64,000 nt of DNA from Bacteroidia bacterium (GTDB taxonomy: Bacteria > Bacteroidota > Bacteroidia > J057). The DNA is taken from contig JAWPMV010000001.1 of NCBI GenBank assembly GCA_033391075.1, positions 3,410,001 to 3,474,000 of the forward strand, given 5' to 3'. The notes under the pieces are model-generated. The model was given only the letters and a program-made list of their open reading frames with translations. It was not told the origin of the DNA and made no database searches. Positions 20,841-62,763 of this stretch are shown here, one piece after another (the first letter of the stretch is position 1; every line of letters begins with the position of its first letter). The translations under genes and the position numbers were made by a program.

Positions 20841-21162
20841 TGTTGGTGTTTTTGGGTGTTAGGGTGTTAGCGTTAGTAGAAACCTTAAATTATTACAACA
20901 CACTCCTCAGGCGCGATGGCCCTGCAGAGCCCATCGGGAGCCGGGGCGGCGAGTGTGGCTGGCTTTGGGCTCTGCGATTTTTGACTCCATCTTATAAAAC
21001 GTGTTGGTGTTTTTGTGTGTTAGGGTGTTAACGTTAGTAGGAACCTTAAATCCATACCCCCCAGAGCGATGGCCCTGCAGAGCCCATCGGGAGCCGGGGC
21101 GGCGAGTGTGGCTGGCTTTGGGCTCTGCGATTTTTGACTCCATCTTTTTCTAAAAAAGATGG
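20841..21162 (+). repeat. two tandem GC-rich repeat units with internal inverted repeats
   Basis: Two copies lie in the 532-bp gene-free gap 20789-21320. A roughly 50-bp left part starts at 20841 and 21002 (TGTTGGTGTTTTT..., several differences). An 81-bp core is identical in both copies, at 20913-20993 and 21066-21146. Each core contains GCAGAGCCCA and its perfect complement TGGGCTCTGC (20924-20933/20966-20975 and 21077-21086/21119-21128) around a 32-nt very GC-rich loop, far above the local base composition. A hairpin CCATCTTTTT/AAAAAGATGG (21140-21162) closes the second copy. The unit resembles a REP/BIME-type interspersed element or a non-autonomous transposable element. Bases 21163-21320 hold no recognisable feature except presumably the promoter of the next gene. 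Confidence 0.8.
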
Positions 21163-59066: not shown

Positions 59067-59080
59067 TAACGTAGTTAAAA

Positions 59081-59140
59081 ATGAAAGAAATCAAATCGCA
59101 CAAACGAAATAACCGTTCTTTCAAGAAAAACTACAGTTGA
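59081..59140 (+). CDS. possible 19-residue leader peptide (MKEIKSHKRNNRSFKKNYS)
   Basis: The 19-codon ORF starts just after the predicted transcription start and ends before the repeat array. The peptide is strongly basic (7 Lys/Arg of 19). Nothing else in the window resembles it. It may be a leader peptide of the array transcript or a chance ORF; the position right after a good promoter is the only support. Confidence 0.3.
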   Translation: MKEIKSHKRNNRSFKKNYS

Positions 59141-59212
59141 TCCAAAGAGTAAGCGAGACAGTCCAAAAACTCCCTATACTTGTAACATCAACAGCAAGAT
59201 ATTTGACATTCT

Positions 59213-60200
59213 GATTTACTCTCCCGGCTAAGTCTGACTCACTCAATGAGTATGGGCTGCTTAGTTTTTAGAGCAAGGGCTGAGGTTGATTCATGCAAAG
59301 CATTCGAGTCCCTCGGTTTTTAGAGCAAGGGCTGAGGTTGATTCATGCAAAGCATTCGAGTCCCTCGGTTTTTAGAGCAAGGGCTGAGGTTGATTCACAC
59401 AAAGTGTTCGAGTCCCTCGGTTTTTAGAGCAAGGGCTGAGGTTGATTCATGCAAAGCATTTGAGTCCCTCGGTTTTTAGAGCAAGGGCTGAGGTTGATTC
59501 ATGCAAAGCATTTGAGTCCCTCGGTTTTTAGAGCAAGGGCTGAGGTTGATTCATGCAAAGCATTTGAGTCCCTCGGTTTTTAGAGCAAGGGCTGAGGTTG
59601 ATTCATGCAAAGCATTCGAGTCCCTCGGTTTTTAGAGCAAGGGCTGAGGTCGATTCATGCAAAGCATTTGAGTCCCTCGGTTTTTAGAGCAAGGGCTGAG
59701 GTTGATTCATGCAAAGCATTCGAGTCCCTCGGTTTTTAGAGCAAGGGCTGAGGTTGATTCATGCAAAGCATTTGAGTCCCTCGGTTTTTAGAGCAAGGGC
59801 TGAGGTTGATTCATGCAAAGCATTTGAGTCCCTCGGTTTTTAGAGCAAGGGCTGAGGTCGATTCATGCAAAGCATTTGAGTCCCTCGGTTTTTAGAGCAA
59901 GGGCTGAGGTTGATTCATGCAAAGCATTCGAGTCCCTCGGTTTTTAGAGCAAGGGCTGAGGTTGATTCATGCAAAGCATTCGAGTCCCTCGGTTTTTAGA
60001 GCAAGGGCTGAGGTTGATTCACACAAAGTGTTCGAGTCCCTCGGTTTTTAGAGCAAGGGCTGAGGTCGATTCATGCAAAGCATTCGAGTCCCTCGGTTTT
60101 TAGAGCAAGGGCTGAGGTTGATTCATGCAAAGCATTTGAGTCCCTCGGTTTTTAGAGCAAGGGCTGAGGTTGATTCATGCAAAGCATTTGAGTCCCTCGG
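59213..60200 (+). repeat. tandem array of one diverged and 18 near-identical 52-bp hairpin units, each followed by TTTTTA
   Basis: Units 1-18 occupy 59265-60200 without gaps (18 x 52 bp); unit 0 (59213-59264) is a diverged copy that aligns without indels. Each unit is a 15-nt linker (TTTTTAGAGCAAGGG in units 1-18) followed by a 37-nt hairpin: outer stem CTGAGG/CCTCGG, left bulge TT or TC, middle stem GATTC/GAGTC, inner stem ATGC/GCAT with an AAA loop, right bulge TC or TT. Units 3 and 15 have inner stem ACAC/GTGT, a double compensatory change. In unit 0 the stems are CTAAGT/GCTTAG and ACTC/GAGT with the same geometry. The T-tract directly after each hairpin makes each unit look like an intrinsic terminator in + orientation. 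The period is not a multiple of three and no spacers exist. Confidence 0.95.
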
Positions 60201-60206
60201 TTTTTT

Positions 60207-60238
60207 AAAGCCATCTGTGAAAGCAGGTGGCTTTTTTT
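60207..60238 (+). terminator. strong terminator closing the hairpin array
   Basis: AAAGCCATCTG (60207-60217) and CAGGTGGCTTT (60224-60234) form an 11-bp stem with one G-T wobble, loop TGAAAG, followed by a run of T to 60238. It is unrelated in sequence to the array hairpins and insulates the array from the GTPase gene. Confidence 0.85.
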
Positions 60239-60318: not shown

Positions 60319-62046
60319 ATGCATAACAATATTTTTGATACGGACCTCCAACCTTTTAAGCTAAAATTGGGGGAAATCGTGAAAAATCTTCACGATATGG
60401 CGAGTGAAACTCGTAATGAGGGTCTTAGCCAAACTCTCAGTGAACTCCGGACAAGTATTGGAGAACCTTTTTTGTTTGTAATTGTGGGTGAGGTAAAAGC
60501 GGGCAAAAGCAGCTTTATAAATGCTTTGTTAAATGTGGGTAAAGAGGTAGTAAAAGTTGCTCCGGATCCCTGCACAGATACGATACAACAATTGATCTAT
60601 GGAGATCAAGCAACTGAGCTGGAAATAAACCCCTATTTAAAAAAGATCATACAGCCCGTGGATATCCTTCGCAAGATATCCATAGTCGATACACCAGGTA
60701 CAAATACCATTTCTGAACATCATCAGGAAATAACCGAAAGATTTGTTCCTCGCAGCGATCTAATAGTTTTTGTTTTCGAAGCTAAAAACCCCTATCGCCA
60801 ATCTGCCTGGGATTTTTTTGATTTCATTCATAAAGACTGGCAAAAGAAAATCATCTTTGTTCTACAGCAGGCAGATCTCATGAACGAGGCTGATCTTACC
60901 ATCAATATCGAAGGAGTCCGAAAGCACGCAATAAAAAAAGGCATAAGTGATCCGAAAGTCTTTGCCCTTTCCGCAAAGCAGGAATTAGAGGGAGATCATG
61001 CTTCCAGTGGTTTTGACAAACTCAATGATTATATACGGGATAATATCACCAATCTCAATGCATATAAACTGAAATTACAAAGTACCGTTTCCACCTCTCG
61101 TAACCTCCACGCTAAACTGGAGCTAACTTTGAGAGCCATGGAAGGCCAGTTAAAGGCCGATCGTGATTTCAGGGCTGACATTCATCATACCCTTCAGGAT
61201 CAAGAGGAAAGATCTCAAAGACAGGTTGATGCCTTGATTAGAAATATGCTGGAGGATTATGACCGTATAACTCTTGAAAGTCAAAAGGAACTTAGCGACG
61301 GCATGGGTGTTCTGGCCCTAACCCGAAAGAGTTTTATGTCCGTCTTCAATAAATCTGATTCCCCTCAGCTTTGGCTGAAAAGCCTTACAAAAAATCTGGA
61401 ACAAGACCTTAGCAAAAGCTTTAATGAAAGGCTAAATGAAGGCGTAGAAGAAATTGCAGACAGTATCCGCCAAATGGCCAAGATCATCGATCTGAAAATC
61501 CAAAATTCTCAAACAGTCCTCAGACCCAAACAAGACATATTTGGGGATATTTCTGAAAGACGGAGACTGGTATTGCGGGAATTACGGGAAGGTTTTTCTG
61601 ATTTTATCAATCAAACAGAAAGCTTTGTGGGTAAAGAGGTTTTTCCGGAAGCGTCTAATTTATCTCCCAATATAGCTGCAGGAAGCGGCATGGCCGTAAT
61701 TGGTGCTGTTTTGGCAACCGTTACATCAGGCGTAGCTTTCGATATTACCGGTGGGATTATCACTGCAGCAGGATTGATGTTTGCAGGAGGAACCATCTTA
61801 TTGAAAAGAGGAAAAATAATTGGGGGCTTTAAAAAAGAGATTGACAAAGGGAGAAAACAACTTTCCACCAACCTTGACCATAAATTAAAGGCTTACATTT
61901 CTCATATTCGCAAAAAGATAGACAGCAATTTCTCAGAGTTTGATAAATTGTTGGATGAAGAAGGCAGGCATGTCGAAAAATTAGCTGTACAACATACCTT
62001 CACGCGCCAAAGTCTGGACAAACTTGAAGAGGAACTAAAACAATAG
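60319..62046 (+). CDS. dynamin-family GTPase with C-terminal membrane segments
   Basis: A 575-residue bacterial dynamin-like protein. G1 is GEVKAGKS (residues 57-64), G2 is the Thr in DPCTDTIQQ, G3 is DTPG (124-127) and G4 is Q-Q-A-D (183-186), the dynamin-type variant of TKxD. A helical stalk follows (about 250-440), rich in charged heptads. Around residues 450-500, GSGMAVIGAVLATVTSGVAF and GGIITAAGLMFAGGTILL are hydrophobic and would act as a membrane-inserting paddle. A final coiled coil ends the protein. Dynamins remodel membranes; several bacterial ones protect against phage or membrane damage. The AlbA_2 gene lies 60 bp downstream on the same strand. It is 80 bp after the array terminator and may have its own promoter. 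Confidence 0.9.
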   Translation: MHNNIFDTDLQPFKLKLGEIVKNLHDMASETRNEGLSQTLSELRTSIGEPFLFVIVGEVKAGKSSFINALLNVGKEVVKVAPDPCTDTIQQLIYGDQATELEINPYLKKIIQPVDILRKISIVDTPGTNTISEHHQEITERFVPRSDLIVFVFEAKNPYRQSAWDFFDFIHKDWQKKIIFVLQQADLMNEADLTINIEGVRKHAIKKGISDPKVFALSAKQELEGDHASSGFDKLNDYIRDNITNLNAYKLKLQSTVSTSRNLHAKLELTLRAMEGQLKADRDFRADIHHTLQDQEERSQRQVDALIRNMLEDYDRITLESQKELSDGMGVLALTRKSFMSVFNKSDSPQLWLKSLTKNLEQDLSKSFNERLNEGVEEIADSIRQMAKIIDLKIQNSQTVLRPKQDIFGDISERRRLVLRELREGFSDFINQTESFVGKEVFPEASNLSPNIAAGSGMAVIGAVLATVTSGVAFDITGGIITAAGLMFAGGTILLKRGKIIGGFKKEIDKGRKQLSTNLDHKLKAYISHIRKKIDSNFSEFDKLLDEEGRHVEKLAVQHTFTRQSLDKLEEELKQ

Positions 62047-62106: not shown

Positions 62107-62763
62107 ATGGAACTGGCCGAACTCAGGAAGCTCGTAAGACAAGGAGAAGGCTTTCAACTGGAATTTAAACGCAAAGCCAAATACCCGGAAAAAATCGCCC
62201 GGGAATTTGTCGCATTTGCAAATTCTGAAGGAGGTATTCTATTGTTAGGGGTAGATGATGATGGCAGTATATATGGGAGCAAAAGCCCCGGAGAGGACCA
62301 GTTTATCCTTGAAGATTTCCTCCAAAAATACCTTGTCCCAAAAATTGATTACAAAATCCGTAGAATTCCCATTACTGCCCAAAGAGAAGTAATTCTATTT
62401 CAGGTAAAATCAAGTTATAGAAAACCTCATTTTATTCGCTACCCAGACAGGCAAAGTGAAAAACAGGCCTATGTACGGGTAAAAGATATGAGTGTAAAGG
62501 CGAGTAAAGAAATGGTGAAAGTGCTAAGGCATAATAAAGACAAGCAAGGAGTATCTCTCCGAATTGGAGAAGCAGAAAAGCGAATCCTGGCTTATCTGGA
62601 GGAACATGCAGGCATAAATCTCCAAACTACTTCTGAATTATTAAAAAGTAATCTCCAGCAAGCTTCAAGCAAACTCGTGATCCTTACACGGGCAGGAATC
62701 CTCTCTATTAAAGCCAGTGAAAAAGGCGATGTGTTTTCCTTAAACAAAAAAGCCTTCGAATAA
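62107..62763 (+). CDS. AlbA_2 (Schlafen-type) DNA-binding domain protein with C-terminal winged helix
   Basis: A 218-residue protein. The AlbA_2 domain is at about residues 10-130: GEGFQLEFKRKAKYPEKIAREFVAFANSEGGIL is given here by its parts FQLEFKRK, AREFVAFANSEGG and LLGVDDDGSIYG, the diagnostic pattern, followed by PKIDYKIRRIPITAQREVILFQVK. The C-terminal 60 residues (EKRILAYLEEHAGINLQTTSEL...) look like a winged helix. AlbA_2 proteins include transcriptional regulators and tRNA-acting Schlafen nucleases; the catalytic residues of the nuclease type are not all evident. It is probably co-transcribed with the dynamin gene and may regulate it or act with it. Confidence 0.85.
   Translation: MELAELRKLVRQGEGFQLEFKRKAKYPEKIAREFVAFANSEGGILLLGVDDDGSIYGSKSPGEDQFILEDFLQKYLVPKIDYKIRRIPITAQREVILFQVKSSYRKPHFIRYPDRQSEKQAYVRVKDMSVKASKEMVKVLRHNKDKQGVSLRIGEAEKRILAYLEEHAGINLQTTSELLKSNLQQASSKLVILTRAGILSIKASEKGDVFSLNKKAFE

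Follow-up and report, generated by a model that had tools for sequence, protein, structure and literature searches.

A tandem array of hairpin units related to a multicopy family of predicted small RNAs with LytTR-type promoter sites in one Bacteroidota order

The window, as we call the whole stretch of 64,000 nucleotides that was analysed, carries on its + strand 18 contiguous 52-bp units arranged head-to-tail at 59271-60206, the first of which begins with GAGCAAGG at 59271. TRF placed the repeat at 59264-60205 (period 52, 18.1 copies, 96% matches, no indels), and this result together with the count of units confirmed the array of 18 units at a fixed 52-bp period that an earlier note on this DNA had described. 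The features of the locus are listed below.

59113-59118 (+): half-site CCGTTC, LytTR-type, 62 bp before the -7 box, on the same distance ladder as in stand-alone copies
59134-59139 (+): CAGTTG, a second half-site placed 21 bp behind the first one and 41 bp ahead of the -7 box, assigned by eye in the same register
59175-59182 (+): Bacteroidota-type -7 box TATACTTG, with a transcription start inferred at about 59189 from the sequence and from the parallels in stand-alone copies
59189-59270 (+): leader of the supposed array transcript, closing in a divergent hairpin (59228-59264) and T5, assigned from sequence and folding
59271-60206 (+): 18 tandem units, each of GAGCAAGGG, a bulged hairpin and T5 (T6 in the last), supported by TRF, by counting and by 18 separate covariance-model matches
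60207-60238 (+): canonical intrinsic terminator behind the array, with a 12-bp hairpin at 60207-60234, assigned from folding and sequence
60319-62046 (+): dynamin-like GTPase of 575 aa, the downstream neighbour of the array (Pfam Dynamin_N, 1.3e-18), its membership of a system being only putative

The hairpin of the unit is 37 nt long with a two-base bulge, and T5 closes the 17 internal units and T6 the last one; the unit sequences thus bear out the bulged, terminator-shaped hairpin followed by T5 that had been reported for every unit. A single unit folded at -18.5 kcal/mol (z -2.55), with 6 of 200 shuffles equally good. Five sequence variants occur among the 17 internal units, and in two of the 18 units the two sides of the apical stem have changed in a corresponding way (ATGC/GCAT to ACAC/GTGT). 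When two units were folded together the global optimum paired neighbours and not single hairpins (-40.1 vs -37.0 kcal/mol); the linkers are short and A/T-rich, and they are unpaired if folding is kept local. At the level of DNA the array consists of 18 repeated hairpins, which may be carried on a single RNA. The "+1" of the earlier note corresponds to a divergent hairpin at the end of the leader (59228-59264): it folded no better than shuffles (80 of 200 equally good) and was absent from the family-model matches at E up to 0.1. The leader word TATTTGACAT also precedes the arrays of two related genomes, G003 and G004.

The GTPase at 60319-62046 is similar to LeoBC/LeoA (LeoBC-like in PADLOC) and is followed by a Schlafen AlbA_2 protein at 62107-62763; a weak pAgo match of this Schlafen-type neighbour in PADLOC (2.9e-4) was given no weight. 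Elsewhere in the window a second tandem repeat, with a 153-bp unit, 1.9 copies and 90% matches, lies at 20841-21146. A tRNA search of the window found none, and a tRNA-like element was rejected on this ground.

The distribution of the unit was determined with a covariance model (R1) built from an alignment of 51 units (A1). In the source genome R1 found 27 copies, namely the 18 array units and nine stand-alone copies (C1:4213332, 4213785, 6369889, 6743661, 7891382, 7900206, 7904340, 7904597 and 7904969). With the source genome included, R1 matched 13 of 13 genomes of the family and 19 of 22 genomes of the order, the order genomes G013, G019 and G020 giving no match. A lack of homologues outside this genome was the first part of what the earlier note had named as refuting its reading; the matches across the order contradict it, and the array is no orphan satellite. 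Under stricter filters, which retained only 14 of the 27 copies of the source genome, two of 395 genomes drawn from the phylum matched, the source genome itself and a marginal one (32.1 bits). BLAST with a unit dimer matched 10 of 100 genomes, the source genome included and all within one family, and a fixed-pattern scan of one genome per species in 84,980 species returned 43 stretches, all from Bacteroidetes/Bacteroidia MAG contigs except for one Okeania contig. Phages, plasmids and viral contigs gave no match, one of these searches being for exact matches to a single pattern, and a phage, plasmid or viral origin was rejected for lack of matches in those collections.

Both the scan and A1 relied on a fixed pattern, so that conservation of its letters in A1 is partly built in. 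GAGCAAGGG was present in 25 of the 27 model-found copies of the source genome, where the copies at C1:6369889 and C1:6743661 read GAAGCTAGGG, and in 62 of 66 stand-alone sites. Pairing in A1 reached 97.4% of cells, 120 cells had changed on both sides and the covariation score was 0.467; for each of these three measures none of 500 shuffles was as high. Slid registers of A1 were at most 56.2% paired, and the paired changes include G-U. The remaining two of the five covariation measures were unremarkable, with 149 of 500 shuffles as high for two-sided-change pairs and 29 of 500 for further pair types. Judged from the alignment, both variable stems covary.

Rfam gave no match in the window at the gathering score. 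With E up to 5, 11 matches were obtained for L141, L009, L028 and L070, two of which overlap an RNA copy far below the cut-offs and are not FopS; a known RNA family was rejected because there was no credible Rfam match. Among the papers listed by searches of the openly licensed PMC literature, none was seen to report the family. By sequence comparison, this is an RNA family without an Rfam match that is present in most genomes of one Bacteroidota order.

The 66 stand-alone sites were hand-picked from 117 matches after array-internal units and duplicate loci had been dropped, and the family and order model searches listed further copies outside this set. In single copies GAGCAAGGG comes with a T tract and with the bulged stem, GGTYGAYTC ... 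GAGTCC. Seven predicted stand-alone RNAs that were folded measure 61-85 nt. They were divided by their 5' parts.

Class A: a small hairpin (CAGGA...TCCTG) and GGAATTACAA
Class B: GAAAGGGCGATAATCCTGGATTACAA
Class C: ACAGGTTAAAGTAAAGAAT
Minimal kind: a few A-rich bases ahead of GAGCAAGGG, then the hairpin and the T tract
Kind F: a divergent 5' part

One unit of the array corresponds to the minimal stand-alone RNA of other genomes, and the array multiplies nothing but the module that the classes have in common. In the 5' hairpin of class A 84.2% of cells were paired and three had a double change; its score was above 500 of 500 shuffles, two other measures were not, and its covariation is not leaned on here. 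Two divergent copies (L143:4890-4949 and L144:4662-4721) carry AGGCATTACGCCAGATACAGAAGCTAGGG before the hairpin and form a separate 5' class of the source genome. The nearest downstream ORF, as called mechanically, lies on the same strand in 35 of the 66 stand-alone copies, within 300 bases for 27 of them, and on the opposite strand in 26, five copies having no ORF in the available DNA. With their -7 box, module and T tract, the stand-alone copies look like small RNAs.

Arrays were also found in five relatives, the first units of those of G005 and G006 being taken from the locus and model-search results.

G003: 40 units of 56 bp
G004: 3 units of 53 bp
G005: 4 units of 52 bp
G006: 7 units of 56 bp
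G008: 58-bp units, divided between contigs

A coding repeat was rejected, as neither 52 nor 56 bp is divisible by three. A further array lies on L052 (NZ_RCBY01000327.1), a 6.4-kb contig deposited under the cyanobacterium Okeania hirsuta. This contig is collinear with the window at 82% identity over 4.8 kb and is therefore probably a contaminant, or a bacterial companion, derived from a related species. Its array has 19 units, one of them of double length in the script's count, compared to 18 in the source genome. Identity between the two is about 94% in the array and 93.5% in the 250 bases before it, against 79.1% in the adjacent gene for the GTPase and 83.0% in the stretch 250-700 bases before the array (gaps being uncounted in the pre-array and gene figures). 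A hairpin followed by a T run was also seen by eye behind the arrays of G004, G006 and L052.

The gene order TPR-array-dynamin occurs in G005 and G006, TPR-array in G003, and array-dynamin in the source genome and L052. Class A copies lie beyond the TPR gene in G003 and beyond TPR and VWA genes in G005 and G006, and next to a TPR homologue of the source genome, at C1:4.21 Mb, there are two stand-alone copies. The GTPases at the array loci are 57-62% identical, whereas the TPR proteins are only 29-32% identical, which makes the TPR part of the synteny weaker. The arrays of G004 and G008 are located elsewhere, that of G008 preceding a different LytS-type kinase, which shares 38.6% identity with the L009 kinase. 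Arrays of 3-40 units are thus recurrent and, in four genera, apparently occupy a common locus; from these comparisons the array seems to have been kept there while its unit and its period diverged between genera. Two further tandem repeats (L017:4058-4780 and L017:10805-11499), of about 155 and 160 bp in 4-5 copies, are found close to the 40-unit array of G003.

The sequence TAnnNTTG, which we take to be the Bacteroidota-type -7 box, lies 12-46 bp before 46 of the 66 stand-alone copies, and 16 have no recognisable -7 box. For the array itself, a promoter near 59073, as proposed in the earlier note, was not borne out; the likely one is formed by TATACTTG at 59175-59182 with the half-sites at 59113 and 59134. 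Upstream of the 66 stand-alone copies the coding strand carries the motif CCRTTC 61 times, where 5.7 were expected and none of 500 Markov draws gave more than 15; the other strand carries it twice, with 3.3 expected. Of these copies 38 have at least one such motif and 28 have none. Within a slightly wider motif set, the spacing between sites peaks at 21 bp (18 pairs) and also at 42 bp, and 38 of the 50 sites ahead of stand-alone -7 boxes lie exactly 41 (15 sites), 62 (14), 83 (6) or 104 bp (3) before the box. The array of G006 also has a site at 62 bp. The CAGTTG at 59134 departs from CCRTTC and is kept in L052. According to PMC4847170, most LytTR regulators recognize two repeats of 9-11 nt placed 11-13 nt apart, that is, one per 20-24 bp. 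In part of the copies a repeat spacing of this kind was found upstream of the promoter, as a 21-bp periodicity at fixed distances from the -7 box. Half-sites 21 bp apart are as expected for a LytTR regulator, the binding of which is predicted from these sites.

Downstream of each of the seven class B copies there is a gene resembling the L009 kinase, a kinase that is itself followed by a LytTR response regulator (Pfam assignments made on one kinase/regulator pair). At E 1e-60 this regulator is matched exactly once in 21 of the 22 genomes of the order, and its identity is 63-91% in the 11 other genomes of the family that have a match. In at least 10 of the 21 genomes, from nine genera (G000-G004, G006, G007, G009, G010 and G021), same-strand RNA copies are located no more than about 3.5 kb ahead of the regulator gene, as judged by coordinates; G013, G019 and G020 have the regulator without a match to the RNA model. 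From this arrangement we infer promoter control by that particular LytTR regulator. A leader peptide encoded by a 19-codon ORF from 59081 was rejected, this ORF lying upstream of the likely start and its start codon not being kept in L052.

A stack of terminators in which the first units alone would be transcribed had appeared puzzling, and the puzzle is eased, if not solved, by the short T tracts inside the arrays. Tracts of at least six T were found in 2 of 70 internal array units compared to 58 of 66 stand-alone copies, a count made without L052 (sequencing-like indels; last unit T5) and without one truncated unit of G008. Since units of the same array are not independent observations, it is fairer to count arrays: in five of six, the tract of the last unit exceeds those of the internal units. 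The exception is G003, where the last of the 40 units ends in T5, and L052, were it counted, would be a second one. The internal tracts being short, polymerase probably reads through to the final terminator. The internal hairpins would then be weak terminators, and the transcript would be ended by the hairpin behind the array, located in the source genome and recognized by eye in G004 and G006.

Several candidate partners of the RNA were considered. CsrA was not found in the source genome, nor in 15 other order genomes among those listed, and it was present in 1 of 395 Bacteroidia genomes; a CsrA decoy was rejected because the source genome has no detectable CsrA. Triplets of the ARN type are the motif recognized by Hfq, and ARN-like triplets in AAGAGCAAG prompted the idea of an Hfq decoy, which was rejected since none of the 60 Bacteroidia relatives searched, the source genome included, had Hfq over the cut-off (G014 had one match below it). 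The scarcity of CsrA and Hfq in these searches bears on global post-transcriptional control in Bacteroidia. All 13 of the 13 family genomes encode RRM proteins, and these also occur in genomes without a detected RNA copy and are missing from the RNA-bearing G014 and from the incomplete G018; as their presence does not track the RNA, an RbpB-type RRM protein was rejected as partner. RRM matches number five in G000 and one to four in 12 family relatives, and two RRM-protein genes lie close together at G000:C1:7337972-7338974. Ten words of 6-9 letters complementary to parts of GAGCAAGGG showed no clear enrichment around 329 ORF starts, a small sample drawn from the retrieved loci; antisense pairing at start codons via GAGCAAGGG was rejected on this result, which is a mild lean away from simple antisense pairing.

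The best explanation that we can offer, held tentatively and with about as much doubt as belief, is that the array encodes a LytTR-induced polymeric RNA acting as a multivalent decoy for the partner of the stand-alone RNAs. A LytS-type histidine kinase and a LytTR regulator, encoded in one operon, would sense a signal; the regulator would bind half-sites at a 21-bp spacing, located 41-104 bp ahead of the -7 box, and would switch on the stand-alone RNAs and the array together. RNA polymerase would pass the 17 weak internal T5 terminators and stop at the strong hairpin at 60207-60234, yielding a transcript of about 1.05 kb that contains 18 modules of almost the same sequence. Each module could bind the partner of the module shared by the stand-alone RNAs, most likely an RNA-binding protein, so that one transcript might titrate up to 18 partners. 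Multiplication of the shared module only, under control like that of the single RNAs, is what a multivalent decoy would need. The sequence-based parts of this explanation are the family, its covariation, the promoter layout, the gene neighbourhood and the T-tract difference; its inferred parts are transcription, read-through, control by that regulator and titration.

The main rival to the decoy is processing of the array transcript, a precursor from which cleavage at every UUUUUA linker would release as many as 18 monomers acting on targets, with the array serving as a dose amplifier. A unit matches the minimal stand-alone RNA, made up of a short 5' lead followed by GAGCAAGGG, the hairpin and the T tract, so that exact cleavage in the linkers would regenerate that RNA, and processing fits nearly as well as the decoy. 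It also agrees with the short, A/T-rich linkers, unpaired under local folding, and with the precedent of FopS, multicopy Bacteroides small RNAs that combine a terminator with a 5' seed in single-stranded form (PMC11697453). On the other hand, complementary words are not clearly enriched near the 329 ORF starts and nine separate genes of the source genome already serve dosage, and we regard processing as rather unlikely, though a serious contender. That the array is a plain satellite, a stand-alone RNA gene duplicated by slippage, homogenised by recombination and without function of its own, we consider improbable. The units are indeed near-identical within a genome, differ in period (52, 53, 56 and 58 bp) and sequence between genera, as in concerted evolution, and range in copy number from 3 to 40. 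However, arrays stand at a common locus in four genera and contain paired changes, and between the source genome and L052 (18 vs 19 units) the array and the 250 bases before it have diverged far less than the next gene.

Class B copies carry a terminator of their own and are placed between a LytTR-type promoter and the kinase gene; this position, and the same-strand ORFs downstream of about half of the stand-alone copies, would suit a regulated terminator or attenuator before the kinase-regulator operon, the array then titrating an (anti)termination factor. Only a slim chance is given to this explanation, since behind the 26 copies that face an opposite-strand ORF there would be nothing for an attenuator to control. 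Tandem palindromic units would also be found in an element working as DNA, either as single-strand hairpins for a recombinase or as a spaceless CRISPR/TIGR-like guide array. Against such an element, to which we give next to no credence, stand the strand-specific promoter and terminators, the G-U among the pair changes, the lack of variable spacers, the lack of matches in phages, plasmids and viral contigs, and the Pfam scan of 10 proteins, which names no nuclease or recombinase. The earlier note's reading was thus partly supported: its option of a reservoir of structured RNA or a sponge gained support as one possibility, as did its view that CRISPR-like arrays do not fit, and its idea of single-strand DNA recombination gained nothing.

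Only through other genomes does it become visible that the unit forms the core of a multicopy family of stand-alone, predicted small RNAs with a link to a LytTR two-component system. The multivalent decoy can be extended to a Gac/Rsm-like global switch working without CsrA or Hfq, in which LytS/LytTR would control hairpin-RNA copies throughout the order and one family would polymerise the RNA, up to 40 units with weakened terminators, to titrate an RNA-binding protein; this wider proposal is possible, and we are inclined to doubt it. An order-wide multicopy RNA apparently tied to a single-copy LytTR regulator is of interest since its taggable polymeric form offers a direct route to the partner. 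Through its short internal T tracts, the array also suggests a route from a terminator-ended small RNA to a long multivalent RNA.

Among known systems the closest in the proposed logic are the decoy RNAs CsrB and RsmY, which are induced by the two-component system GacS/GacA and titrate a regulator protein by means of many repeated hairpins. The likeness lies in a two-component system inducing a many-hairpin titrating RNA, as we propose here; the differences are that no CsrA was found, that LytTR takes the place of GacA, and that the units are near-identical, head-to-tail and terminator-tailed and exist as single-unit RNAs too. The type III toxin-antitoxin RNAs ToxI, CptI and TenpI consist of tandem short repeats before a terminator and a gene. 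The array resembles them in having short tandem RNA repeats followed by a terminator and a gene, but the gene downstream encodes a dynamin-like GTPase and no ToxN/AbiQ-type toxin, and single units are present elsewhere in the genome. TIGR arrays (TIGR-Tas, PMC12045711) and CRISPR share the feature of tandem repeats in one array, whereas here there are no variable spacers and no effector gene among the neighbours scanned. Integron attC sites differ in that the 52-bp units of the array are directly consecutive, without cassette genes between them.

FopS of Bacteroides thetaiotaomicron comprises 14 paralogous RNAs of about 65-70 nt, in which a single-stranded 5' seed is joined to a terminator and to which RbpB, an RRM protein, binds; its model is stated to be deposited in Rfam (PMC11697453). 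The array family gave no credible Rfam match and belongs to another lineage, and on these grounds it is provisionally set apart from FopS. It further differs in its LytTR-type promoter sites, in the covarying bulged stem of its terminator and in its tandem arrays, which the available text of PMC11697453 does not mention for FopS. On the other hand, both are multicopy Bacteroidota small RNAs, here predicted, of similar size and at scattered loci, and the likeness in architecture, a single-stranded 5' part followed by an intrinsic-terminator hairpin, makes FopS the closest known system in kind.
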